A stretch of DNA of 21,593 nucleotides, from positions 1-21,593 of the forward strand of contig LT649536.1 of the NCBI GenBank assembly GCA_900128395.1. Direction: 5' to 3'. The notes under the pieces were generated by a model. That model searched no databases and was not told the origin of the DNA. It saw nothing but the letters and a program-made list of their open reading frames with translations. Positions 3,295 through 21,266 of the stretch are shown piece after piece. Made by a program: the position numbers and the translations under genes. Positions within the stretch are counted from its first letter, which is position 1; every line of letters starts with the position of its first letter. The DNA comes from Stramenopiles sp. TOSAG23-2. Taxonomy: Eukaryota > Sar.

Positions 3295-4695
3295 ATGAAG
3301 AAGAGCAATTATATTATATTATTATTAGCATTGTTGCTATCATCATTCATAGCAACATCGGTAGTATTAGCGTCGTCAGAAGAATTTGATGAATTTGCGG
3401 AAGTATTTGGTGATGATGAAGATGATGAACTTGATGAAGATGACGATATGGACGATGATGAAGAAAATAGTGATGTAGACTTTGATGGTTCAATCAGTGG
3501 AAAGCAATTTTTAATCAAAAATGCCAGGAAATCAGGTGTTAATGTACATGAATCTGGCTTACAATATAAGGTGCTTCGCTCGGGTGATACAACACATGGT
3601 GTTACACATCCATCTGCTACAGATATTTGTACAGTGCATTACACAGGTAAACTAACAAGTGGTGACGTATTTGATTCTTCAGTTGCACGTGGAACCCCGG
3701 CGCAGTTTGCACCAAATCGTGTAATACGCGGTTGGACAATTGCATTGCAAATGATGTCTCCAGGCGATAAGTGGATATTAACCATACCATCTGAATTAGC
3801 ATATGGCGAAAAAGCTAGTGGAAAAATACCAGCAAATTCAGTCTTGATTTTTGAAGTGGAATTAATTAGCTTCAGAGGACCATCTTGGCGTGATTATTTG
3901 AGCACTAATACAATTATCATCATAGTATATATGTTGTATACATTTTATAATTTGTTTTTTGGGAATCGTGGTGGTGCACCAAAGGGCTGCAAAGACGTGC
4001 CATTCAAAGAAGCTATGGCTGGTAATCTAGATAAAGTTTATTTCGAAATTACAATTGGTGGAGAGAAAAAAGGTCGTTTAAATATGCTTTTATTTAAAGA
4101 TATTGTACCAAAAACAGTGAAAAATTTCAAAACCCTTTGTACAGGTGAGAAAGGATTTGGATACAAAGGCTCCCCATTTCATAGAATTATACCAGATTTC
4201 ATGTTGCAAGGTGGAGATTTTACTGCACAAAATGGAACAGGGGGCAAATCTATTTACGGCCGTAAATTTGATGATGAATTCACTGAAAAAGGAATGGTAA
4301 AACATTCGAGGCCAGGCTTATTATCAATGGCAAATGCAGGTCCAAATACAAATGGTTCTCAATTCTTCATCACAACTGCTGTAACATCACATTTAGATGG
4401 AAAACACGTTGTATTTGGGGTAGTAGCAGATAAAGAATCGATGAAATTAGTCAAAGAGATTGAAGCAATAGGCAGTAGTAGTGGAACACCAAGTAAAAAA
4501 GTTATTGTAGCTAATTGCGGTTATCTTCAAGAAGTACCAGCCGTGAATAAAGCTAAACATTCCCATAGTCATGATGGTGTAGAATGCCATGGACACGGAG
4601 AAGCATCATCAGATGTGAATAATAATAAAAAAGATGATGATGCAAAGGCTAAAAAACTTGAAAAAGAGAAGGTTGATATCGAGAAGATGGATTAA
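3295..4695 (+). CDS. Dual-family immunophilin: signal peptide, FKBP, membrane segment, cyclophilin
   Basis: This 466-residue protein carries two unrelated peptidyl-prolyl isomerase domains. Residues 1-27 form a signal peptide (hydrophobic core [20 protein letters not shown]), followed by an Asp/Glu-rich stretch at about 29-63. The FKBP domain is at about 88-193 and keeps FDSS, the pocket motif VIRGW and the ending [20 protein letters not shown]. Residues 203-222 form a hydrophobic segment suited to crossing a membrane. The cyclophilin domain is at about 247-411, with [16 protein letters not shown] (catalytic Arg297) and NGSQFFIT. The position equal to Trp121 of human cyclophilin A is His366. 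A His-rich patch ([15 protein letters not shown]) and a charged tail close the protein; no KDEL-type signal is present. If the signal peptide is cleaved, the FKBP domain would be in the ER lumen and the cyclophilin in the cytosol; this topology is inferred. I see no ASAFAP-type plastid motif. Confidence 0.93.
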
Positions 4696-5863: not shown

Positions 5864-8800
5864 ATGAAACATTGTTACTTTTACATAATTTGGATCATGG
5901 CAACATCGTTTATTGTTGTGACACCTGTAAGCGGCCGCTGCAGAGATGGTGGTATGCGAAACGTGAGAAACGGAGGAGGTTGTAGTTGCAGCCCGTCACA
6001 ATGCAGAAGAGATTGGACTGTAAGCGCTGGTGGCGACAATGGTTATGACGAATGCTGTGGTTGTGACATTAGTTGTGAGGCTATGACGAAATTGATTAAC
6101 AACGCAAAGAACATAGCGAACGCTGCTCACAAAACAGCGAACGCTGCTCACAACACAGCGAACAAAGCAAAGACCACAGCGAACAAAGCAAAGACCACAG
6201 CTGAGGAAGCCGGAAGAAAAGCTGGAGAAGCCAAAAAAACAGCTGTGGAATCCGAAAGAAAAGCTGGAGAAGCCAAAAAAACAGCCACTACAGCACAGTC
6301 AACAGCAAAGGCGGCGAAAGATAGTGCTGGAGAAGCCAAAAAAACAGCCACTACAGCACAGTCAACAGCAAAGGCGGCAAAAGATAGTGCTGGAGAAGCC
6401 AAAATAACAGCAAAGGCGGCGAAAGATAGTGCTGGAGAAGCCAAAACAACAGCCACTACAGCACGGTCAACAGCAAAGGCGGCAAAAGATAGTGCCACTA
6501 CAGCAAAGAAAACAGCTGCGGAAGCCGGAGGAAAAGCTGGAGAAGCCCATAAATCAGCTGGAGAAGCCAAAACAACAGCCTCTACAGCACAGTCAGCAGC
6601 AAACGAGGCGAAAAAAAGAGCTGGAGAAGCCCATAAATCAGCCACGACAGCACAGGAATCAGCATCTACAGCACATAAATCAGCTGGAGAAGCCCATAAA
6701 TTAGCCACTACAGCACAGAAAACAGCCATCACAGCTCAGTCAACAGCAAAGGCGGCGAAAGTTAGTGCCAGTACAGCACAGGAAACAGCAAAGGCGGCAA
6801 AAGATAGTGCCGCTACAGCAAAGAAAACAGCTGCGGAAGCCGTAGGAAAAGCTGGAGAAGCCCATAAATCAGCTGGAGAAGCCAAAACAACAGCCTCTAC
6901 AGCTCAGTCAGCAGCAAACGAGGCGAAAAAAAGAGCTGGAGAAGCCCATAAATCAGCCACGACAGCACAGGAATCAGCATCTACAGCACATAAATCAGCT
7001 GGAGAAGCCCATAAATTAGCCACTACAGCACAGAAAACAGCCATCACAGCTCAGTCAACAGCAAAGGCGGCGAAAGTTAGTGCCAGTACAGCACAGGAAA
7101 CAGCAAAGGCGGCAAAAGATAGTGCCGCTACAGCAAAGAAAACAGCTGCGGAAGCCGTAGGAAAAGCTGGAGAAGCCCATAAATCAGCTGGAGAAGCCAA
7201 AACAACAGCCTCTACAGCTCAGTCAGCAGCAAACGAGGCGAAAAAAAGAGCTGGAGAAGCCCATAAATCAGCCACGACAGCACAGTCAACAGCCACCACA
7301 GCACAAAAAACAGCCACTACAGCAAAGTCAACCGCAAGCAAGGCTCACTCATTGGCTAGTACAGCACAGAAAATAGCCGGAGAAGCAAAAGATGGAGCGG
7401 AACGTGTAAAAGAAAGTGTTCAAATTACAAAAGCAAGTGTGGAAAAGTTGAAAGAAACAGCTGATAATAAAATCAAAGAGTTAAAAGAAAGTACTAATAC
7501 TCACGTCACAGAAATCAAAACTAAACTGGATGAACAAAAGGAAAAAACAAACGATTTATCGATTAAAAATTCACGTTTATGGCAAAAAGAACAAATACGT
7601 TTACAACATGATACGACGATGCAACATCGTAAAACCAAAGATAATACAAATGAAAAATCATCATGTAAAAGTGAACGTACAAAAGGTACAATTATATTTC
7701 CTGCAATTGAAATTTCAAATGAAATTGAAGACAAAGAAGATACAACATGTATTGATACCAACCGTGATGAATTATTAAAATCATTTTGTTCCTTTAGAAT
7801 GGATTTAGACAATTTATTTAAAATACAAAGTATTAAAAAAGAAGCAAAAACATTTTGGCCTAATATATGTTGTAAAGAACGTAATGGTAATGATATTTCC
7901 AAAACATTAGAATCGTGCAAACCACCTGAAGGTAGTGATATTAAACCTGAAAACATGATACCATTTGCTTTATCACAAGGTGGACATTACAATCGTCATA
8001 ATTTATATGTGGAAGTGACGGAGGCCATTAAGGAGAATGGATATTTACATGAAGGCATGGAAAAGTTGCTCGATTCGTTTCCATCATCTATGGATATAAA
8101 AAAAGAAAAAGCAAAAGAAAAGGTTGGCAAGTTCTTTAATGAGGTCTCATTATGCGGCCCACGTATTGTGGATGCTCCGGGAAACAATGAAAATAAATTA
8201 TGTGAATTGTTTGTTCCTTATAAACATGCAATGAGAAACTTTTACAATTTAATTAAAAGTTTGTATATCAAACCAATGAAAATCCAATCAGCATTTTTTT
8301 TAGAAACCATGGAGCGTTCGCTGCGTAAACGTTCGGAAACGAAACGTGTAGGAAAAAGCAATATACAAAATATAATGCAAATGAAACCTAAAACCACTGC
8401 AGAAGCAACATGCACGGGCGGTTCCAAATGGACGTCTTCGGAACTAAAAGAGAAAAAGCAAGACTTTTGTCTTGGTTACAACCATTTAGATTTAAGCGAT
8501 ACCAACATTAAAAACGTTGCGATACATTATTTGAAACACGATATATCGTACGATGATAAGAAAATGTTTGAGTTGTCTGAGCAATTGCGTTACGAGGTAA
8601 CAGACAGTTCCTGTCCCGCACCATTGTTCACTGCGAATGATATTTCGATTCAACAAGTCGGGATGGATGTATTAGGAAAAGAAAAAGAATGGGTAGCAGT
8701 TGTTAATTTGAATACCCAGGATAAAGATGGTTATTTACAAAGTGAGTTGCCACATTGCGAAGATCGAAAATATTTAATTGGTGCTAAAGTAGTAGTGAAA

Positions 8801-9016
8801 GCATATGTAGATGACAGAAATTGTTGTAAAACGATGAAAGACTCAACAAAATGTGAAGATTTATGCGGAAAGCCATTGAGAAGATTGAACGATACTGACC
8901 ACAAACATTATTCCAAAGACGTGGTGTTGACGGGAACGCATTACGAGGTAAAAAATCCACATGATGTGAGAAGGAGGAGGCGGTTGTTGAAGGATCGCAA
9001 CAGTCACTTGTGTTAA
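5864..9016 (+). CDS. Large secreted protein with alanine-rich heptad coil, function unknown
   Basis: I do not recognise this 1050-residue protein. Residues 1-24 look like a signal peptide (FYIIWIMATSFIVVTPVSG). A cysteine-rich segment with eight Cys at 26-71 follows (CSCSPSQC, CCGC). From about 75 to about 545 the chain repeats a heptad of the form (S/T)A-x-x-A-x-x, for example TATTAQS TAKAAKD SAGEAKK. This predicts a very long alanine-core helix or coiled coil. It is rich in Lys and Glu and almost free of large hydrophobics. Within it, a 105-residue block (15 heptads, 315 bases) recurs 2.4 times. Residues from about 545 to the end are non-repetitive with scattered Cys (CC, CPAPLF, CKTMKDSTKCEDLC), suggesting a disulfide-bonded extracellular domain. 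The end is basic (RRRRRLLKDRNSHLC). A cell-surface or extracellular-matrix rod is plausible, and resemblance to LEA or alanine-helix proteins may be compositional only. The stop is TAA. Confidence 0.88.
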   Translation: MKHCYFYIIWIMATSFIVVTPVSGRCRDGGMRNVRNGGGCSCSPSQCRRDWTVSAGGDNGYDECCGCDISCEAMTKLINNAKNIANAAHKTANAAHNTANKAKTTANKAKTTAEEAGRKAGEAKKTAVESERKAGEAKKTATTAQSTAKAAKDSAGEAKKTATTAQSTAKAAKDSAGEAKITAKAAKDSAGEAKTTATTARSTAKAAKDSATTAKKTAAEAGGKAGEAHKSAGEAKTTASTAQSAANEAKKRAGEAHKSATTAQESASTAHKSAGEAHKLATTAQKTAITAQSTAKAAKVSASTAQETAKAAKDSAATAKKTAAEAVGKAGEAHKSAGEAKTTASTAQSAANEAKKRAGEAHKSATTAQESASTAHKSAGEAHKLATTAQKTAITAQSTAKAAKVSASTAQETAKAAKDSAATAKKTAAEAVGKAGEAHKSAGEAKTTASTAQSAANEAKKRAGEAHKSATTAQSTATTAQKTATTAKSTASKAHSLASTAQKIAGEAKDGAERVKESVQITKASVEKLKETADNKIKELKESTNTHVTEIKTKLDEQKEKTNDLSIKNSRLWQKEQIRLQHDTTMQHRKTKDNTNEKSSCKSERTKGTIIFPAIEISNEIEDKEDTTCIDTNRDELLKSFCSFRMDLDNLFKIQSIKKEAKTFWPNICCKERNGNDISKTLESCKPPEGSDIKPENMIPFALSQGGHYNRHNLYVEVTEAIKENGYLHEGMEKLLDSFPSSMDIKKEKAKEKVGKFFNEVSLCGPRIVDAPGNNENKLCELFVPYKHAMRNFYNLIKSLYIKPMKIQSAFFLETMERSLRKRSETKRVGKSNIQNIMQMKPKTTAEATCTGGSKWTSSELKEKKQDFCLGYNHLDLSDTNIKNVAIHYLKHDISYDDKKMFELSEQLRYEVTDSSCPAPLFTANDISIQQVGMDVLGKEKEWVAVVNLNTQDKDGYLQSELPHCEDRKYLIGAKVVVKAYVDDRNCCKTMKDSTKCEDLCGKPLRRLNDTDHKHYSKDVVLTGTHYEVKNPHDVRRRRRLLKDRNSHLC
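6264..6430 (+). repeat. Short in-frame tandem repeats of 63 bases (three heptads)
   Basis: The block beginning GCTGGAGAAGCC near 6263 recurs at about 6326 with near-identical sequence, an offset of 63 bases or 21 codons. A shortened version follows from about 6389. The unit encodes TAKAAKDSAGEAKKTATTAQS, three heptads. The near-identity at DNA level indicates recent duplication inside the coding region. Confidence 0.75.
6515..7285 (+). repeat. 315-base tandem repeat inside the heptad-coil gene, about 2.4 copies
   Basis: Copies start at 6515, 6830 and 7145 (marker GCTGCGGAAGCCG), exactly 315 bases apart. The last copy ends near 7285, where it diverges. Each full copy encodes 105 residues, or 15 heptads, so gain or loss of a copy preserves both reading frame and heptad register. 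Copies 2 and 3 share the variant EAVGKAGE where copy 1 has EAGGKAGE. That suggests copy 3 was duplicated from copy 2, or the reverse. Confidence 0.92.
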
Positions 9017-9104: not shown

Positions 9105-11237
9105 TTACGATCTACAATCTCCACCATCATATTCACATTCATATGAATTACACTCTACATCACAATATCCATCGTTCTTCACATGACGACTCCAACAATA
9201 TTTACTACATAACGGCTCACAATCCAAAGACTTGTCAATACTACACACTTCATTACCAGAGAAATACGATTCAACGTTATTCGTTTTTATCAATTTTTTC
9301 AATCCATCATCAACATCTGTAATATTATTATCTCTTGCGTCTAGATAGTTTAACCGTTTAAAATTAGATAAATATAATGGAAGGGATTTTAAATTACACC
9401 GTGCGACTCCCATTTGAACAAGGTTACCTTGTAGCGATTCGTCAGGAAATGTTAGTAACTTATTTCCATTCAAATATAAAAACATTAAATTTGGAAATTT
9501 TTCTCTGTTGAAAATTATATTCAGAGTCATACCATTATTAGCGAAAGCAAGAAACTGCAACAACGGCATATTTATATCAATTTTTGGCGGGTATAAACCA
9601 ATATTACTTTCTAATTGGACACCAACAAGATTCTTATGTGTCCACAATGCCTTTTCGTCATATCGTGTAATATTATTATTGCGCAAATGTAAAGTCACCA
9701 ACTTTTCCCATTTACTAATATTAACATCAAACGCATTCAACTTATTATATGAGACTCTAAAGTCAACCATCTCATTTAAACGTTCCATTTTTGGTGGCAA
9801 TGTCTTTAAGCTACAATTTGTAATTACAACCTTTCTCAAACCATCCATTTCACTTACAATATTATCCGGCAACTTCGTCAAATTTTTTTCCCCCTCAATT
9901 TTCAAAAATGCACAATTACATTTCGGATGAAATGGTCTATTACAAAAAGGAATTTTAATTTGGCATCCTTTGTTCCATATCAAATCTTTTATTTCAAAAG
10001 TTTCCTCGTCACATGTATTTAAAAACGATATGGTAGCCAATTGCCCAATAACTATAACGACTAAACCTAGTACATAAATAAAACTCATAGTAAATACTGT
10101 CATTTTTGCGCAACGTGGAAAGTATTTATTTTGTGTCTTTGCTATTTCATCTCTTAATGAGGTTGCATACAACGATTGACGTCTTCTATTCTTTTTCTTA
10201 GATTCCTCCTCTTGTTTTTTACTTATGTTTAAACTGATAAGATCAAACAAACTATGTTTCAATATTGCACGTAATTTTCCAGCCAATGAAAACGATGGCA
10301 TCATAATAATTTGTATTATTTCAGCCACAGATATTTGCATGTCATAGACTACTTGTATTAAAAAAAGTGGCACAAATACAAAAAATAAATCAATTGCAAT
10401 GTCAAGTTTCACTTGGAAATTACGTTCGCCAACATCAATTTTTGTTTTTCCTGTATTACTACTTTTTTTGTACATAATCTTACAGCGATAAATAGATTCA
10501 ATTATAAGCATCAAAGCAAACAGCGCATTCCATTCAATTGGTAATGTACAGGAATACACTGTTATTAAATTTGTAAATTGTATCCAATTTTCAACAAATT
10601 CATGTAAATATAATTTATATAAATAAAATTTTCCATTTATACCTAAATTACTATTATATAAGTTGAATATATATTTAAGTCTTCCCCCTCTGCTATTGCG
10701 ATGTAGAAACTTTTTTTTTCCCCATCGTCTTACTATTCGTTTCCAACAAAGACTAAAATATGAAAATTGGAAAAAAAATATGATGGAAAATATTAAAAAT
10801 ATCCATATAAATTCCATATTGGCACGGGAAAAGTTTGTAGTTCCACGCGGATTCGCATATTTGAAATAAATATAAAATTGAAACCCAGATATTACCAACA
10901 TGGTGGTAAGTAAAAGAAACCCACTGCAACCAAAATTTTTGCAATTGCATGATAAATTATCCAATATATCTTGCGCAATTTGATCTGTTGTAGATACAGT
11001 TCGTTTGATTCTTTTTTTATCCTCTTTTTCTTTCTTCTTTTTTTGAACCTCGTTGTTGGTAATGCATAAAAGATCCAATGGTTGCATACCAGATTGTATT
11101 TGTTCTTTCTTTAAATTCTTCTCCATTTCACTGGATATATTGTTAGTATGCATCATAACAATTTCAACATTCTTTAAAGCGTCATTTTGATTACCCTGCT
11201 CAACATTGTCAATATTATTAATATTATCATTCTCCAT
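9105..11237 (-). CDS. Multi-pass membrane protein with leucine-rich repeats and a Notch-type LNR module
   Basis: This 710-residue protein has no cleavable signal peptide. A hydrophilic N-terminal region (1-100, with KKKKEKEDKKRIKR) is followed by hydrophobic segments at about 105-125, 142-163, 220-248, 279-318 and 378-404, separated by basic loops (RRWGKKK; KKQEEESKKKNRRRQ). After the last segment comes a Cys-containing stretch (CDEETF, CQIKIPFCNRPFHPKCNC, 409-442). Leucine-rich repeats follow at about 453-660 (LRKVVITNCSLKTLPPKMERL; LVTLHLRNNNITRYD; LMFLYLNGNKLLTFPDESL; LNYLDARDNNITDVDDGL). The last 30 residues match an LNR (Lin-12/Notch repeat): CWSRHVKNDGYC, CNSYEC, then DGGDC. The LRR and LNR parts are probably extracellular, with the N terminus cytosolic. 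A receptor or adhesion role is inferred; no kinase or other enzymatic domain is visible. The stop is TAA. Confidence 0.88.
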   Translation of the reverse strand: MENDNINNIDNVEQGNQNDALKNVEIVMMHTNNISSEMEKNLKKEQIQSGMQPLDLLCITNNEVQKKKKEKEDKKRIKRTVSTTDQIAQDILDNLSCNCKNFGCSGFLLLTTMLVISGFQFYIYFKYANPRGTTNFSRANMEFIWIFLIFSIIFFFQFSYFSLCWKRIVRRWGKKKFLHRNSRGGRLKYIFNLYNSNLGINGKFYLYKLYLHEFVENWIQFTNLITVYSCTLPIEWNALFALMLIIESIYRCKIMYKKSSNTGKTKIDVGERNFQVKLDIAIDLFFVFVPLFLIQVVYDMQISVAEIIQIIMMPSFSLAGKLRAILKHSLFDLISLNISKKQEEESKKKNRRRQSLYATSLRDEIAKTQNKYFPRCAKMTVFTMSFIYVLGLVVIVIGQLATISFLNTCDEETFEIKDLIWNKGCQIKIPFCNRPFHPKCNCAFLKIEGEKNLTKLPDNIVSEMDGLRKVVITNCSLKTLPPKMERLNEMVDFRVSYNKLNAFDVNISKWEKLVTLHLRNNNITRYDEKALWTHKNLVGVQLESNIGLYPPKIDINMPLLQFLAFANNGMTLNIIFNREKFPNLMFLYLNGNKLLTFPDESLQGNLVQMGVARCNLKSLPLYLSNFKRLNYLDARDNNITDVDDGLKKLIKTNNVESYFSGNEVCSIDKSLDCEPLCSKYCWSRHVKNDGYCDVECNSYECEYDGGDCRS

Positions 11238-11982: not shown

Positions 11983-14522
11983 CTACTCTTCATGTGCACC
12001 AATATCATCATCTAACATTTTCGCCAATTCAAAAATTGAACCACCTTGTGATAAATAATCTACGTAATCATCGTTTCCATTATTATTATATATATTATTA
12101 CTACTACTATGGTTTTTATTTTGTTGTCTTGCGGACGACGACGATGACGATGATGAAATGTCAATAGCATTTATACCTACTTTAATTTCTTCTTGATCAT
12201 CATCAATTTCTGGTTTTGATACATTATTTGATTTCTTTTTGCTTTTTACCGTCACTGCTGTCTTTCGAGTATTATTATTATTTTTATTTTTATTATTACT
12301 ACCATTGATGTTACTTCCCCTATCGTCAATACTCTCAATGGACGTAGCTTTTTTCTTCTCCTTTTCACGTTGTTTCTTTTTCTTACGTTTCTTTTTCTTT
12401 GCCTTAGCTTTACTCGATTTTTCCGCAGCTTCTTCAGCATACATTTCATCCCATTGACTTAGTTGATAAGACAAATGGAATTTTTCACAACTACAATTTG
12501 TACATACCATACATTTACATTCATTACAATAGAAGCAATCTCTTGCATTTTTACCACTTATATTGTTGCATATTGTACATGTGATAAAATAATTATTCCA
12601 TAGAGAAGATGCACGTTTTGATAAGACTGGATCGCCAGATTTTTGCAACATTTCAACTTTTTTTAAATCAATTAAATGAGCATGACGGTTTGGTTTTTCA
12701 AAGACAATATTAGAATCACTCTCAGGATTCCCGTTATTGTTACTATCGTTACCATTATTTTTTGAAGAAACAAAATTTGCTTGGCGAGTATCACTACCTT
12801 TTGATTTCTTTTTCTTGTTTTTATTATTATCATTAATAGTTTTACTACTATTATTATTACTTTGATTCTTGTTGTTGTTGTTGTTCTTCTTCTTCTTATT
12901 GGTATTATCACCACCATCTAATATAGCTTTTTTACGAATTGCAGCTAGTATTGGATTGCCATTACCACCCCCATTATCACCCATTTCACCAACTTTTAAT
13001 ACTTTTTCAAGCCCTTCCAATGCCATTCCAGCCATAGATCGTTCTCCCAGTAAATTGCATAAAATAGTTACGCATCCACATTTTGACAACGCTTCAATTT
13101 GTTTACCGGAACCACATGATGTTGCATTTAAAATAACCCAACAAGCTTCTATTTTAACATCTTGATCAGTACGATCATCTGATATAAGTTTAATTAATAA
13201 TGGTATTACCCCGGAATTCAATACATACTGAATTTGATCCTCCGAACCAGCAGCAATATTGGACAATGTCCAACACGCTTCTTTCTGGATTTCCCGATTT
13301 GAATGACTAACTAACTTCTCCAACCGATGCACTGCATTTAACTGTACAATATGCTGTGTATAATCCTGTTTTTCATCCTCCGCGCATACGATGTTTCCTA
13401 TTGTCCTCAATGCAGGTTTTGCTACACGCCATGAGCGATGCTCGAGCAATGCAATCAAGCGTTGGCATACATTAGAATGGACAACTTGTTCCACATATTT
13501 ACTTGGACCATCACATAAATGACTTAATGCCCAGCAAACGTGACTAAGCACTTCCGTATCATCATTACTGATGATTTTTACTAGGCAAGACAAGACAGCT
13601 TGTAAATTAAACGACGAGGTGGACGATGAATATGCTTGTGGTTGACCATCGCATATATTGCTCAATGCCCATGTAGATATACGCTGTAAGGACAAACGGT
13701 TACTGTTATTTATTATTTGCAACAATGGCACCAAAGCCTTTTCCTTTAACACTTTGTCCCTGGCTGGCGGCCCATCACCGGCTAGATTACCCAATACCCA
13801 TACAGCTTGTTCTAACACTTCATCATTTGAAGATCCCATCAAACCAACTAATGCTGGAATTGCTCCTTTTTGTATTAATACCCGTGCATGGTCGCTGGAA
13901 CCTGCCGCCACATTTGTTAATGCCCATAAAGCTTCTACCTGCAATTCAGTCACGTCATCACGTTTTAAAAAACTAAGCAATCGCGGTATTAAATCATGAG
14001 CTATTACATCATCTATTAAATATTCTCGCTCTACACTTAAAAGTTGTCGTATTTTCTTAGTTGCTGCTAATTGATCATCCGTTTTTGTACTATACAATGA
14101 TTTTTCTACTTGTCTCAGCAAACTTCTTAAAGCAGGCGTTTCACTATGGCGGTGGATCATGCGATGTTGCTGATGTTGTAAAAATTCTTCTGGTGTTCGG
14201 TAGTTTGGTTGACTTGATTCAGCTTTCCCACCTAAGATTACATCCATGTCTAATACTTGAAAATCGTTATTACTTTTACTTTTATTATTATTATTACTAT
14301 TATTATTATTATTACTTGATGGGAAGGAGCTGGTATCATATGACTCCCTCCTTCCCTTTTTTTCCTTGCATCTCCACTTTTCATACGTTTAACACCACTT
14401 ATTTGAGGTTTTAACATTTCTGTATTTTTATCAACAGTGTTGTCTACATTATCATTACTTGCATCTGAACCATTATTCCTTTTATTATTATCAACCTGTA
14501 AATTTACACTTTTACTATCCAT
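11983..14522 (-). CDS. Importin alpha (karyopherin alpha) with extended C terminus; one predicted intron
   Basis: Importin alpha binds nuclear-localisation signals of cargo and pairs with importin beta for nuclear entry. The proposed model joins 14522-14345 and 14249-11983 across a 95-base intron, giving 814 residues. Exon 1 ends in a basic stretch, GVKRMKSGDARKKREG, matching the end of an importin-beta-binding domain. ARM repeats occupy about 100-480, with the cargo-binding Trp/Asn ladder visible as WALTN, WVLGN, WALSN, WTLSN and WVILN; one repeat has WALSH. The last ARM repeat (LIDLKKVEMLQKSG to SLWNNYF) is separated from the others by about 75 Asn/Lys-rich residues. After it come a cysteine cluster (CTIC, CFYCNECKC, CTNCSC, then H), a Lys-rich tract (KAKKKKRKKKKQREKEKKK) and an Asn/Ser-rich tail with an acidic end. 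Usual family length is near 530 residues. The stop is TAG. Family assignment is very sure; the intron model is moderately sure. Confidence 0.9.
14250..14344 (-). other. Predicted spliceosomal intron in importin alpha
   Basis: On the minus strand the segment begins GTCATATG (14344) and ends TTTCAAGTATTAG (14250). Joining the flanking exons restores one frame: exon 1 ends in phase 1 with A, and exon 2 supplies AC, giving Asn, then ATG GAT GTA. The joined protein reads DARKKREGGNMDVILGGK, a plausible importin-beta-binding-domain end. Without splicing, exon 1 runs into a low-complexity Ile/Val stretch and a stop. The donor is GTCATA rather than GTAAGT/GTGAGT, which lowers confidence. Confidence 0.6.
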
Positions 14523-16304: not shown

Positions 16305-19300
16305 ATGTTGCGTAGATATATTATTAACAATTATGGAGTTGCCCCCCCCCAAAAAGTAAAAACAGTTTTAAAACATTTCGCAAGTGTTCATTTTTCTTCC
16401 ACAACAACAACTGGTGGGGATGACGGTGATGGGGAGGATAATAATAACAATAATAATAATAGTGATAGTGAAGATAATAATAATATTAACGACGATGATG
16501 ACGTTGGAACAACAATCGATACTACACAAGAAAGTGTGACAGGCGTAGCACGGCGCGGGTTTGAACCATTGAATACATTGAAAATTTTGAAAACTGCATC
16601 AAAAGCTGTTGCAAATAAGCATAAAGATAAGCAAGATGCTATATTGCGTTATCGTATGAATATTAAAGACGAAGATTTAGGTGATATACGTAGAATGTTT
16701 GAACAACGTAGGCTATTAAGAGATGTGCAAAAGAGCAATGAATTAGGCGATGAGGAAATGATGGACGTGGACGATGAGCAGCCTGAATGGGTCATTGAGG
16801 ACGAAAACTACAATTATCCTCCCACCGGCTTTTCCCCAACTGATGTTGAAACATTGTATAAATTTTTACATCCATCCGGTAAAATCATGCCAAGGTATCA
16901 AACAAAATTAAGGGCAAAACATCAACGCAAATTAGCAAAAGCGGTCAAAGCGGCGAGACAAATGGGGTTAATACCCACGACATATGCGTTGCCAAAACAT
17001 TTGCAAGAAAAATTTGTACCAGAGGCACTATATGCGCGTGCTCAAACGATGACAAAAAGAGAAAAAACAGATATACGCAACAAGAAAAAAAAAGAAAGAA
17101 AAAAATTAAGATCATTGGAGAATAGGAAAATAATATTAAATGAAAATGAGTTACCAAGTGTTTTAGTTTCTGGTGGCCCTTATTTATTTCACAATAGCAT
17201 GGAAGGTATTGGTACATACGTTGAACGTGTAAAAGATGGGGAGGATTATGAAATATCATTAAGAGGTTCTAACGATAATATCGAAAGAATCTTGGAAAAG
17301 GTCGAACATCGTAAACAAAATTTAATTACAGAGACATTGGAGTTTCCAAAAGAACTTGCAATACCAATTATTGGAAAGAAAGGAGCGAATTTAAGACGAT
17401 TTGGGCAAGATCATGGAGTATATTTAAAATTAAAGAGTGATACGAGCGGTGAAGGCAACTTTGATAATTTAAAAGTAGAAATGATTGGTTTGCAAGAAGA
17501 AGTTGAGTTTGCTAGCGAGGCTATGAAAATATTTGTAAAGGATCCAAGCATCGTACGACCTTTTCGTTGGAGGTATGAATATTTGCTACATAATCATTTT
17601 TCATCGGAAATTGGCAAAATCAATGCCATGTGCAGTGAATTTAAAGGACATGTCGTCTTTAAAGATGGGACAGTATTATGCTATGTTGACAAAATGAACC
17701 CTTTCAGTAAGAAGAAAAGCAAAGATACCATGGCAAAGGCAATACGTACATTTGCATCGGAAAAGTTGATACGTTTACCAATTAATAGTAGTGCTGTTCC
17801 AGACTGGTTGCAGCCTTTGTTTGGGGATACAAATGGAAATAAAAATGCATTTTTATTGAAGAAATATTTGATGCAAAATTATAACGTCACATTATATGAC
17901 AGTAACGAGGACGACGACGATGAGGATGGAAGATACTGGGTAGTAGGTCTTGATGACAATGATACAAGGCAATTTCAAAGTGATTTTTTAAGATTAATTG
18001 GAAATTCATTTGTAATTGATAATAGTGTCTTGCCACGTGTTCTTGGTCAAGTTAAAAAAATCCAAGATACCACCAACACATTTATCCAGTTTTTGTACAA
18101 AGATTCCACTAAGAAGGAAAATGTATGCTTAATTATTGGAAGTGATGATAATGTAAATAATGCAAAAGATTTAATTGAAAAAATTAGTAGCCGTGATAGT
18201 TTCGAAAAGGAAGCAGGTGTTCAACAGACAATGTTAAAAATTCGAGAAGATATGAAATATGATTGGAGTATTGCAAATGAATTTATCAATTGTTCTGTAC
18301 AGAGTGGAAACAGTGACGATGAAGTTGCAGTATTTTATGATACTGATGAAAGCTTGCAACGATTAGAAGATTATATTCAAAAACGAAATTTACATGTTGA
18401 TGGTAGTAATGATGTAGAATTTGTTGAAGATGAAATATATTTACCAAGCATTATTGTACCTCAAATTTCTGGGAAAGGTCAAAAAAATTTAAGATGTCTT
18501 CGTTTTTTCACCGGTGCAAATATATCATTAAGCGATGCTGGCTTAAAGTTTCAAGGGCCAAAAGAACAAGTGGAGGAAGCTGTAAGACTTACTCGTTCTA
18601 AAATAGAAGCCATATCCCAGCAAGCCACTGACAAACCGACTGATGTTTATGAATTTCCAGTAGCAGCTGTTCCAGTATTTATGCAAAAAGACAAAAGGAA
18701 TGCCATGAATGAATTCACACGCATTTCTGCAGAGACTGGAACTTTATTGCAATTTAAACAGGAAGGTTTAGATTTACGTAAAAAAACCCTTTTGATTTTT
18801 GGCACTCCAGCACAATGTAAAGTGGCCAAACAACGATGTGTTGATGTGGTGGATTCAATAAATATAGAATCGGTCACAGTGCAATTAAATAAATATACAA
18901 GCGATGGTGTTGATACGGACACGATTACGGATGGAGTGTTTGATAATTTACATAATTTTCAAGTGCGTTCAAATGCAGCACTTATTGTTAGAAGTGATAC
19001 AGTAGAAATACACGGCGATGAAAGATACATCGATAAAGGTGTTGCAGTATTAGGAGAGATAATTGACACATTTAAAGATAAGGAAACGCAAATGATTACC
19101 ATCCCAGAAAACAGAATTTCTGAAATTATTGGCGGAGGTGGTAAAAACATTCGTCGATTGAAAAAGATATCAGGATGCAGCGGAATTCAAATTCATGACG
19201 AAAGAACTGTTGGTGTGGAGGAAGGATTTAAACAAGTTGAATTTACTGGAAAAAGGTACCAAACGGAAATTGCCATTGACCAGTTGTTTCAAGACCTAGA

Positions 19301-19877
19301 ATTTGCAGATAGAAGATATTCCACTATTACTCGTAATGTAGATAATAAAGATTTGCAATTACTATTGCAAGACGATGGTGAATTTTTAAGAAACTTAATT
19401 ATAATATGCGGGATTAAGATGTCAATAAAAGAGGAAGAAACGCTTACTGGTAGAGATTCAAGCAGGGTTGAATTTAAAGGTTTCGGCTCGAATCTTTATA
19501 AAGCATTAAGCTTAATTGAAAAATATGTTAAAACAGGAGAAAGACCAGAGTTTTTTGAAATGAAATATACTATAAAAAAGAACAAATTAAGTCAAGTTTT
19601 AGGCGTTCCAGGCTTAAAGAATATTGGCAACAACGCACAAAGTACAATCCCAGGACATTTGAAACATTTGAAAATGGTAGAGAGAAATAGTCTTGCGTTG
19701 TTTAAAAGCTTATCAAAGCGTCGTTATGGCGTTGTTGATTTAACAATTGTTGGAACGAAAGAGGAAATTAGTAAAGCAAGACAATTATTAGACCCGGATC
19801 AAGTTGCATTGTTTGAAATTCAAGAAGAATGGCTTGAACGTGAAAAAATGGGGGTGCAGGCAGCATCATATTCTTAA
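16305..19877 (+). CDS. Mitochondrial bS18-like ribosomal protein fused to multiple KH domains
   Basis: This 1190-residue protein starts with a presequence-like segment (MLRRYIINNYG, then HFASVHFSST; basic, hydroxylated, almost no acids), pointing to the mitochondrion. An Asn/Asp-rich low-complexity stretch follows (38-66). Residues 171-233 match bacterial-type ribosomal protein bS18: PPTGFSPTDVETLYKFLHPS, GKIMPRYQTKLRAKHQRKLA and KAVKAARQMGLIP. A very basic linker (KREKTDIRNKKKKERKKLR) leads to RNA-binding KH modules. The clearest have the G-x-x-G loop: IPIIGKKGANLRRF (about 344-412), VPQISGKGQKNLRCL (about 711-770) and ISEIIGGGGKNIRRLKKISG (about 930-996). Degenerate KH-like repeats are likely near 570-630 and 785-850. 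The string of KH units recalls vigilin-like proteins. A role in the mitochondrial small ribosomal subunit or in binding mRNA is inferred. Plastid import is less likely without a signal peptide. The stop is TAA. Confidence 0.85.
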   Translation: MLRRYIINNYGVAPPQKVKTVLKHFASVHFSSTTTTGGDDGDGEDNNNNNNNSDSEDNNNINDDDDVGTTIDTTQESVTGVARRGFEPLNTLKILKTASKAVANKHKDKQDAILRYRMNIKDEDLGDIRRMFEQRRLLRDVQKSNELGDEEMMDVDDEQPEWVIEDENYNYPPTGFSPTDVETLYKFLHPSGKIMPRYQTKLRAKHQRKLAKAVKAARQMGLIPTTYALPKHLQEKFVPEALYARAQTMTKREKTDIRNKKKKERKKLRSLENRKIILNENELPSVLVSGGPYLFHNSMEGIGTYVERVKDGEDYEISLRGSNDNIERILEKVEHRKQNLITETLEFPKELAIPIIGKKGANLRRFGQDHGVYLKLKSDTSGEGNFDNLKVEMIGLQEEVEFASEAMKIFVKDPSIVRPFRWRYEYLLHNHFSSEIGKINAMCSEFKGHVVFKDGTVLCYVDKMNPFSKKKSKDTMAKAIRTFASEKLIRLPINSSAVPDWLQPLFGDTNGNKNAFLLKKYLMQNYNVTLYDSNEDDDDEDGRYWVVGLDDNDTRQFQSDFLRLIGNSFVIDNSVLPRVLGQVKKIQDTTNTFIQFLYKDSTKKENVCLIIGSDDNVNNAKDLIEKISSRDSFEKEAGVQQTMLKIREDMKYDWSIANEFINCSVQSGNSDDEVAVFYDTDESLQRLEDYIQKRNLHVDGSNDVEFVEDEIYLPSIIVPQISGKGQKNLRCLRFFTGANISLSDAGLKFQGPKEQVEEAVRLTRSKIEAISQQATDKPTDVYEFPVAAVPVFMQKDKRNAMNEFTRISAETGTLLQFKQEGLDLRKKTLLIFGTPAQCKVAKQRCVDVVDSINIESVTVQLNKYTSDGVDTDTITDGVFDNLHNFQVRSNAALIVRSDTVEIHGDERYIDKGVAVLGEIIDTFKDKETQMITIPENRISEIIGGGGKNIRRLKKISGCSGIQIHDERTVGVEEGFKQVEFTGKRYQTEIAIDQLFQDLEFADRRYSTITRNVDNKDLQLLLQDDGEFLRNLIIICGIKMSIKEEETLTGRDSSRVEFKGFGSNLYKALSLIEKYVKTGERPEFFEMKYTIKKNKLSQVLGVPGLKNIGNNAQSTIPGHLKHLKMVERNSLALFKSLSKRRYGVVDLTIVGTKEEISKARQLLDPDQVALFEIQEEWLEREKMGVQAASYS

Positions 19878-20238: not shown

Positions 20239-21266
20239 ATGTCGTCAATGGTAACGAATCCGCCACATGCGAAACGACAACGTACGTTGTTACAACCGGC
20301 AACCATCGAAGCGTTACAAGAAGAACGTGCGGAACCTATTGAAATTGGTATATTAGTTTTACCAGCTGGATTTGAGTCTGCCTGCGGGATAATGACAAAA
20401 ATACTTCTACATTTAGATATTCGATCATTATGTAATGTTAAACGATCTTCTTTAATACAACAATGTAGAAAAGCATTTGGATGTGATGATTTTGAACGTG
20501 TACGTGATGAAGCCTTAAGTATTGATTATAAAGGTAGAAGAAGTATAAATGAGATGAGACTTTCACATCCAGCGAGAAGACTTTATTTATTAATTGAAAG
20601 ATATCAAAGAGAGTTTCCACGTGGTACTTATCACAGAGGTCGAATACCAACACCTATCGTATGTGCATGTCAACACGGACGTACGAATGATGTAGAATTA
20701 TTTATGAATCTTCATACTTATCACAAGTATATTACTAATTGTGATGTGAATGGCTACAGAGATGATATGACATTGAAAGATATGGTGAGTCAAGTCGGTA
20801 AAACTAGTGAAGGTTATGATCGTACACCTTTTACCGAGATGATATGACATTGAAAGATATGGTGAGTCAAGTCGGTAAAGATAGTTATGGTGGTGAATGG
20901 ACACCTTTAATGATAGCTGCATTGAAAGAACATTTCCAAGTAGTTAAATATTTAATTGAACAAGGTGAAGCTGATCCTAATGCAACTAGTTATTATGGAA
21001 TGAATGCATTACATTATGCAGCAGGTTGGAACAGAACGTATACTAATTTGATTCAGCTCTTGTTGAATAATATGTCTCTTGATAGTATTAACCAAGAAAA
21101 CAACGTTGGAGAAACTCCGTTAGACTATTGTTATGGTGAGAATGATAGTCCAAATCGCCAAGAAATCATTGCACTTTTACGTTCAAAAGGTGGAATTGCA
21201 AATGATTATGATGAAAATGGTAATGAAATAGATTCAGAAGATGAAGATGATTACGAAGATTACTAA
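20239..21266 (+). CDS. Ankyrin-repeat family protein, frame broken by a 77-base duplication
   Basis: Two overlapping frames encode successive parts of one protein. The first (20239-20847, 202 residues) begins MSSMVTNPPHAKRQRT, with a short basic motif that could be a nuclear signal. An unassigned N-terminal domain follows (ACGIMTKILLHLDIRSLCNV; HPARRLYLLIERYQREFPRG), then the first ankyrin-like part (TPIVCACQHGRTNDVELFMN). It stops at TGA 20845-20847. The second frame (to TAA 21264-21266) continues with WTPLMIAALKEHFQVVKYLI and MNALHYAAGW, clear ankyrin repeats, then TPLDYCY and an acidic tail. At the junction a segment beginning GAGATGATATGACATTG is repeated 77 bases apart, shifting the frame. 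Either this copy is damaged, or an intron at about 20798-20871 (GTAAAA to TCAAG, 74 bases) restores a 317-residue protein, or the assembly is wrong. Ankyrin repeats mediate protein binding; the partner is unknown. The family resembles multi-copy ankyrin families in diatoms, from memory. Confidence 0.7.
20759..20879 (+). repeat. 77-base tandem duplication, first 44 bases identical
   Basis: Bases 20759-20802 and 20836-20879 are identical (44 bases). Beyond that the copies diverge by codon-like substitutions (KTSEGYDRTPF against KDSYGGEWTPL), so the second parts look like two different paralogues. The 77-base offset is not a multiple of three and explains the frame break. Confidence 0.9.

Follow-up and report, generated by a model that had tools for sequence, protein, structure and literature searches.

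Contig LT649536.1 of Stramenopiles sp. TOSAG23-2 (GenBank assembly GCA_900128395.1) was analysed over positions 1 to 21,593, the stretch of DNA called the window below. At positions 16305-19877 on its forward strand lies a single frame of 1190 codons without an internal stop, in which a basic N-terminus, a bS18 core and a string of K homology (KH) modules follow one another in one chain. This fusion of bS18 and KH modules in one frame is solid, and it makes the protein a bS18 variant rather than a plain bS18, which is usually small and stands alone. The product is probably a platform protein of the mitochondrial ribosome (mitoribosome), in which bS18 is followed on its C-terminal side by a rod of some twelve type-I KH modules in tandem that partly grip RNA and partly act as a scaffold.

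A bS18 core and a KH string in one chain

The initial annotation had placed a bS18 core at about residues 171-233, in the same uninterrupted frame as a KH string, and profile searches bear out both claims. PF01084 (Ribosomal_S18) matches residues 179-223 at 60.1 bits (cut-off 21, E=2.2e-16), the NCBIfam S18 equivalog TIGR00165 matches residues 180-225 at 48.9 bits (cut-off 38.75), and PF00013 (KH_1) also matches this chain. A PDB sequence search with the fusion protein gave 102 matches at E<=1; the best 60 of these are all named S18, with bacterial bS18 ranking first. The core is thus shared, at equivalog level, with ordinary bS18 such as animal MRPS18C and bacterial bS18, but the longest chain among those best 60 of 102 matches has 143 residues, whereas the fusion protein adds an N-terminal extension and the KH arm to reach 1190. 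It also differs from animal-type bS18m, for which an iron-sulphur site has been described (PMC11791143; like all papers below, cited from excerpts of its text); a pattern scan found no cysteine in residues 166-235, and hence no such site.

The first 30 residues contain five Lys or Arg and no Asp or Glu, a charge compatible with import into mitochondria and with the presequence originally proposed. In the conserved N-terminal extension (residues 84-165), a low-confidence model predicts helices at residues 91-118 and 122-145. By part of the gene, third-position guanine-cytosine content comes to 0.28 (N-terminus), 0.36 (bS18), 0.22 (linker), and 0.26 and 0.24 (KH string, by halves).

Statements that a match is the only one, or that there is none, hold for the 17.45 Mb in 793 contigs of this assembly. 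A second bS18 was among the checks proposed earlier, and PF01084 matches nothing other than the gene described here, even with the threshold relaxed to E<=10; this does not prove that a stand-alone bS18 is absent. bS6 also has one match, an unfused frame of 106 residues. bS21 gave no match at E<=1, for which absence, divergence or a gap in the assembly are all possible. The light-harvesting family PF00504 has no match. KH_1 matches number at least 23, with 13 in C81, four in C95, three in the fusion gene and one each in C75, C405 and C375. The C405 match has NRDG at the GxxG position, and later in the same long frame the sequence looks by eye like leucine-rich repeats.

On the fusion protein, PF00013 scores 104.7 bits (E=2.1e-30), with five stretches matched at a loose setting of E<=10. 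We also built a KH profile from the other KH matches of the assembly, using 19 of 20 and omitting the one in C375. This own-genome profile scored 26.1 bits at residues 346-405, 7.4 at 583-624 and 18.4 at 931-966; 111 of 200 shuffled proteins gave some match, the best reaching 4.3 bits. We then cut the arm into 12 modules that overlap by a few residues, a number based partly on spacing and best read as about twelve, and scored each with the KH profile against 400 shuffles of itself. Seven of the 12 (a, b, e, g, h, j and l) exceed all their shuffles, a and h by narrow margins (9.1 vs 8.6 and 5.5 vs 5.2 bits). For four (c, d, f and k) these comparisons give no sequence support for a KH identity, and c and f also lack the full KH order in structure models.

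Taken alone, module e matches PF00013 at E=2.4e-7 and shows the KH order in a model with both helices merged, while module g reaches E=0.0013 and 18.9 bits, under the cut-off of 21.5, with the full order in one model and the first strand absent in the other. Structure models and structure comparisons place modules of the arm in the type-I KH fold (strand-helix-helix-strand-strand-helix). In the lists of structure matches, the absence of other families excludes none of them. Weak matches to secretin (E=2.4 in a profile search, structure-match probability 0.63-0.77) are read as reflecting a KH-like arrangement common to both rather than homology.

A pattern scan finds GxxG at the KH loop position in three of the 12 modules (b, j and l), in line with the three canonical modules plus degenerate ones counted at the outset. 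The label vigilin-like given then is apt in so far as it describes a long tandem row of type-I KH modules; the protein is not an orthologue of vigilin. The vigilin-like protein of this genome is a separate frame of 1401 residues that holds the 13 KH matches of C81 and is weakly similar to the fusion protein (31% over residues 899-1045, E=0.008), whereas the fusion arm has bS18 attached and lacks GxxG in nine of its modules.

Relatives, the junction and constraint on the arm

Searches of a protein collection returned P0001-P0006 and no other relatives. The collection consists of predictions from genomes and metagenomes, so that spliced eukaryotic relatives may be missed, and scoring in one of the searches was limited to the 7989 candidates with the most words in common. 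No relative turned up in scans of viral contigs. P0004 and P0006 look chimeric, each with a piece of the fusion protein beside unrelated sequence, and P0005 is a short near-identical piece; all three were dropped from the comparison.

P0001 has the same fusion, is also 1190 residues long and is 99% identical. It sits on a separate record of 3802 bases, which would fit a transcript origin. P0002 is identical in 600 of 974 columns (62%), begins at residue 222 and spans the junction and the whole KH string (KH_1, 77.6 bits). It contains just the final 14 residues of the bS18 region, 13 of them identical, and 24 of the 40 linker residues are identical too. Since P0002 starts mid-domain and nearly fills a contig of 2920 bases, it was probably truncated by the contig end. 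P0003 (358 residues) has an N-terminal extension, a bS18 domain (PF01084, 59 bits), a linker and a stretch like module d; its likeness to module c is weak (8/32). P0002 and P0003 thus show overlapping portions of the fusion chain.

Two of the three GxxG loops, those of modules b and j, are retained in P0002. Module h is the most similar to P0002 of the whole arm (65/77 residues identical, 84%), and module c the least (26/67). As the best-conserved module has no GxxG, constraint on the arm does not simply track RNA-binding loops, which argues for protein or structural contacts in addition to a hold on RNA.

Features of the fusion gene and the surrounding window

Table 1. Parts of the bS18-KH gene, with residue numbers of the protein and positions in the window
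Feature	Residues	Positions	Strand	Remarks
Presequence-like N-terminus	1-38	16305..16418	+	net charge +5; 36/38 same as P0001
Asn/Asp-rich low-complexity stretch	39-83	16419..16553	+	net charge -13; 5/21 aligned residues same as P0003
Conserved N-terminal extension	84-165	16554..16799	+	51/82 identical to P0003
bS18 domain	166-235	16800..17009	+	Pfam core 179-223 = 16839-16973; 57/70 identical to P0003
Basic linker, Lys/Arg-rich	236-275	17010..17129	+	net charge +11; 24/40 same as P0002, 15/33 as P0003
KH module a, degenerate	276-338	17130..17318	+	9.1 bits, 0/400 shuffles; partial KH strand/helix order in model
KH module b	339-415	17319..17549	+	loop GKKG 357-360; GTKG in P0002
KH-like module c, degenerate, weak	416-485	17550..17759	+	partial fold; 177/400 shuffles reach score
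KH-like module d	486-566	17760..18002	+	full KH order in model; no KH profile match; 28/66 same as P0003
KH module e	567-636	18003..18212	+	loop shortened (LGQVKK); 14.4 bits, 0/400 shuffles
KH-like module f, ambiguous	637-703	18213..18413	+	model strand-strand-strand-helix only; 86/400 shuffles reach score
KH module g	704-775	18414..18629	+	loop GKGQ (GRRL in P0002); 9.9 bits, 0/400 shuffles
KH module h, without GxxG	776-852	18630..18860	+	highest conservation of modules
KH module i, without GxxG	853-925	18861..19079	+	full KH order in models; 2/400 shuffles reach score
KH module j	926-1001	19080..19307	+	loop GGGG 943-946; GSSG in P0002
KH-like module k, without GxxG	1002-1080	19308..19544	+	full KH order in models; 128/400 shuffles reach score
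KH-like module l	1081-1164	19545..19796	+	loop GVPG 1100-1103, deleted in P0002; 8.1 bits, 0/400 shuffles; fold incomplete in models
C-terminal tail and stop codon		19797..19877	+	poorly conserved: 5/23 same as P0002

Upstream of the fusion gene, the frame at 3295-4695 (forward strand) encodes a protein of 466 residues in which the N-terminus is signal-like and a hydrophobic stretch separates FKBP and cyclophilin domains; we take it to resemble the dual-family immunophilins. The frame at 5864-9016 (forward) encodes 1050 residues that open with a signal-like sequence and include a long repeat array rich in Ala, Lys and Thr, which has periods of 21, 42, 63, 105 and 315 bp and matches an alanine-zipper family. 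On the reverse strand, 9105-11237 encodes a protein that combines hydrophobic stretches with leucine-rich repeats and has a Notch (LNR) domain at its C-terminus, and 11983-14247 an Armadillo-repeat protein, presumably importin-alpha-like, whose Asn-rich C-terminal extension has a Cys-rich stretch and runs of Lys.

Downstream, a 77-bp tandem duplication (20755-20908, 2.0 copies, 87% matches) lies at the junction of the overlapping frames 20239-20847, which has no Pfam match, and 20844-21266, which encodes ankyrin repeats. As 77 is not a multiple of three, the repeat coincides with the frame split. Elsewhere in the assembly, the sole triose-phosphate isomerase match is an unfused frame; stramenopiles often have this enzyme fused to GAPDH. 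A thymidylate synthase frame gave no clue to lineage, and the assembly lends the name stramenopile no support of its own.

A probable role at the mitoribosomal platform

The basic N-terminus would take the fusion protein into mitochondria, where its bS18 core would dock beside bS6 at the platform of the small subunit. The seat of bS18 near the mRNA exit, as the initial annotation had it, agrees with the bacterial platform: in Flavobacterium, bS18, bS21 and bS6 form a pocket for the 3' tail of 16S rRNA (PMC9976891), and an arm on bS18 would for this reason likely lie near the exit. The GxxG modules (b and j in both species, l in this one) could there hold single-stranded RNA, either exiting mRNA or the rRNA of the small subunit, and modules without the loop could serve as spacers and protein-binding surfaces, as in Krr1 and Dim2, whose GxxG-less KH1 domains bind proteins (PMC5738357). 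Overall, the platform would gain a permanent KH-built extension that helps to hold mRNA or the 3' region of the rRNA; such capture of RNA by the arm is our inference.

We favour this role at the mitoribosomal platform because of the seat of bS18, the precedents of Pno1, Krr1 and Dim2, and the RNA-binding proteins recruited by other mitoribosomes. In the pre-40S particle, the KH protein Pno1 occupies the platform and touches the 3' end of the rRNA through a GKDG loop (PMC5695908). In the assembly and the relatives, the profile matches over cut-off, the lone PF01084 match, the stand-alone bS6, the conserved junction, the retained loops of b and j, the KH folds, the make-up of P0003 and the lack of PF00504 all count in its favour.

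Several results weigh against it. GxxG is missing in nine of the 12 modules, the most conserved one included, and the loop of module l is missing in P0002, so RNA capture may be minor. The structure models are of low confidence (mean predicted local distance difference test values of 45.4 and 57.3). P0002, which begins mid-domain, has no bS18 profile match, and the complete chain is known just from this genome and the near-identical P0001. The chief result against a fixed architecture is P0003, which has no KH profile match at E<=1 and no recognisable modules a and b, and ends just inside e; it may be a partial gene model or have a truly different arm. COX1 was not found in the assembly, and the mitochondrial genome is therefore probably outside it.

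The strongest rival is that the arm is chiefly a scaffold of rRNA and protein, replacing lost or fragmented mitochondrial rRNA, rather than a device that captures mRNA. The many modules without GxxG, the best-conserved among them, would suit such a scaffold, and there is precedent: AP2 proteins assemble rRNA fragments in Toxoplasma mitoribosomes, of which RAP and HPR proteins are also components (PMC11652630), and other mitoribosomes have rRNA-binding proteins of the pentatricopeptide repeat (PPR) and octotricopeptide repeat (OPR) types (PMC8998825). On the other hand, both species compared retain the loops of b and j, and we regard a predominantly scaffolding arm as possible but the less probable reading. 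Cleavage of a precursor inside mitochondria, releasing bS18 and the KH part as separate proteins and leaving the fusion to couple only their synthesis and import, is unlikely. Ribosomal proteins freed from fusion precursors are known elsewhere, and the Lys/Arg-rich linker does separate the two parts; its conservation in P0002, however, is above what would be expected of a mere cleavage spacer.

An RNA-binding protein that acts outside the mitoribosome, for example in the cytosol or a relict plastid, and has captured a bS18 domain seems very improbable: the mitoribosome would then lack bS18, as the assembly has a lone bS18 match, and both the basic N-terminus and the lack of PF00504 speak against it. 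That two neighbouring genes were read as one through an error of assembly or gene calling is close to refuted. The chimeric look of P0004 and P0006 shows that such joins occur in databases, and P0003 has a bS18 without a KH profile match, but the frame is uninterrupted, P0001 repeats it in full on a separate record, and P0002 preserves the junction from the last 14 residues of its bS18 part on.

A bolder version of the platform role, which we hold to be rather doubtful, is that the permanent KH arm of bS18 reels in mitochondrial mRNA, replacing both Shine-Dalgarno pairing and delivery by PPR-type proteins, as a KH-built counterpart of bS1. Bacterial bS1, too, attaches a row of RNA-binding domains to the small subunit close to where mRNA leaves, but it is a separate protein of OB-fold (S1) domains with another anchor, whereas here KH modules sit on bS18.

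Other comparable proteins are mammalian mS39, which with LRPPRC-SLIRP provides PPR-type handling of mRNA at the small subunit (PMC8998825, PMC11637978), and the plant PPR protein mS83, found near the mRNA exit (PMC8998825). They resemble the fusion arm in being repeat proteins of an RNA-binding type with a link to the small subunit, but they are separate chains built of PPRs, not KH modules covalently joined to bS18. Pno1/Dim2 and Krr1 also bring KH domains to the small-subunit platform and use GxxG-less ones for protein contacts; unlike the fused arm, they are separate cytosolic or nucleolar assembly factors with two KH domains. Unnamed chains in 90S and pre-40S entries, presumably Pno1, Dim2 or Krr1, align with modules h-i of the fusion protein.

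Searches of open-licence papers found none that pairs bS18 with a KH domain, and among the titles and first lines of abstracts listed by broader searches of these papers the fusion does not appear either. In the excerpts of PMC8998825, the terms 'K homology' and 'bS18' do not occur (a bare 'KH' is not searchable). A KH-type module on bS18 is thus unreported within the reach of these searches. The fusion belongs to a known kind, in which a mitoribosomal protein has a lineage-specific extension that binds RNA. The way in which mitoribosomes find start sites differs between lineages: they rely on PPR proteins in mammals and perhaps plants, and in yeast on translational activators at an mRNA exit that has been remodelled (PMC8998825). 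If the proposed platform role is true, a bS18 with its own KH rod would represent another solution, integral to a core protein of the platform, and would show that such a protein can come to anchor a large arm for handling RNA.

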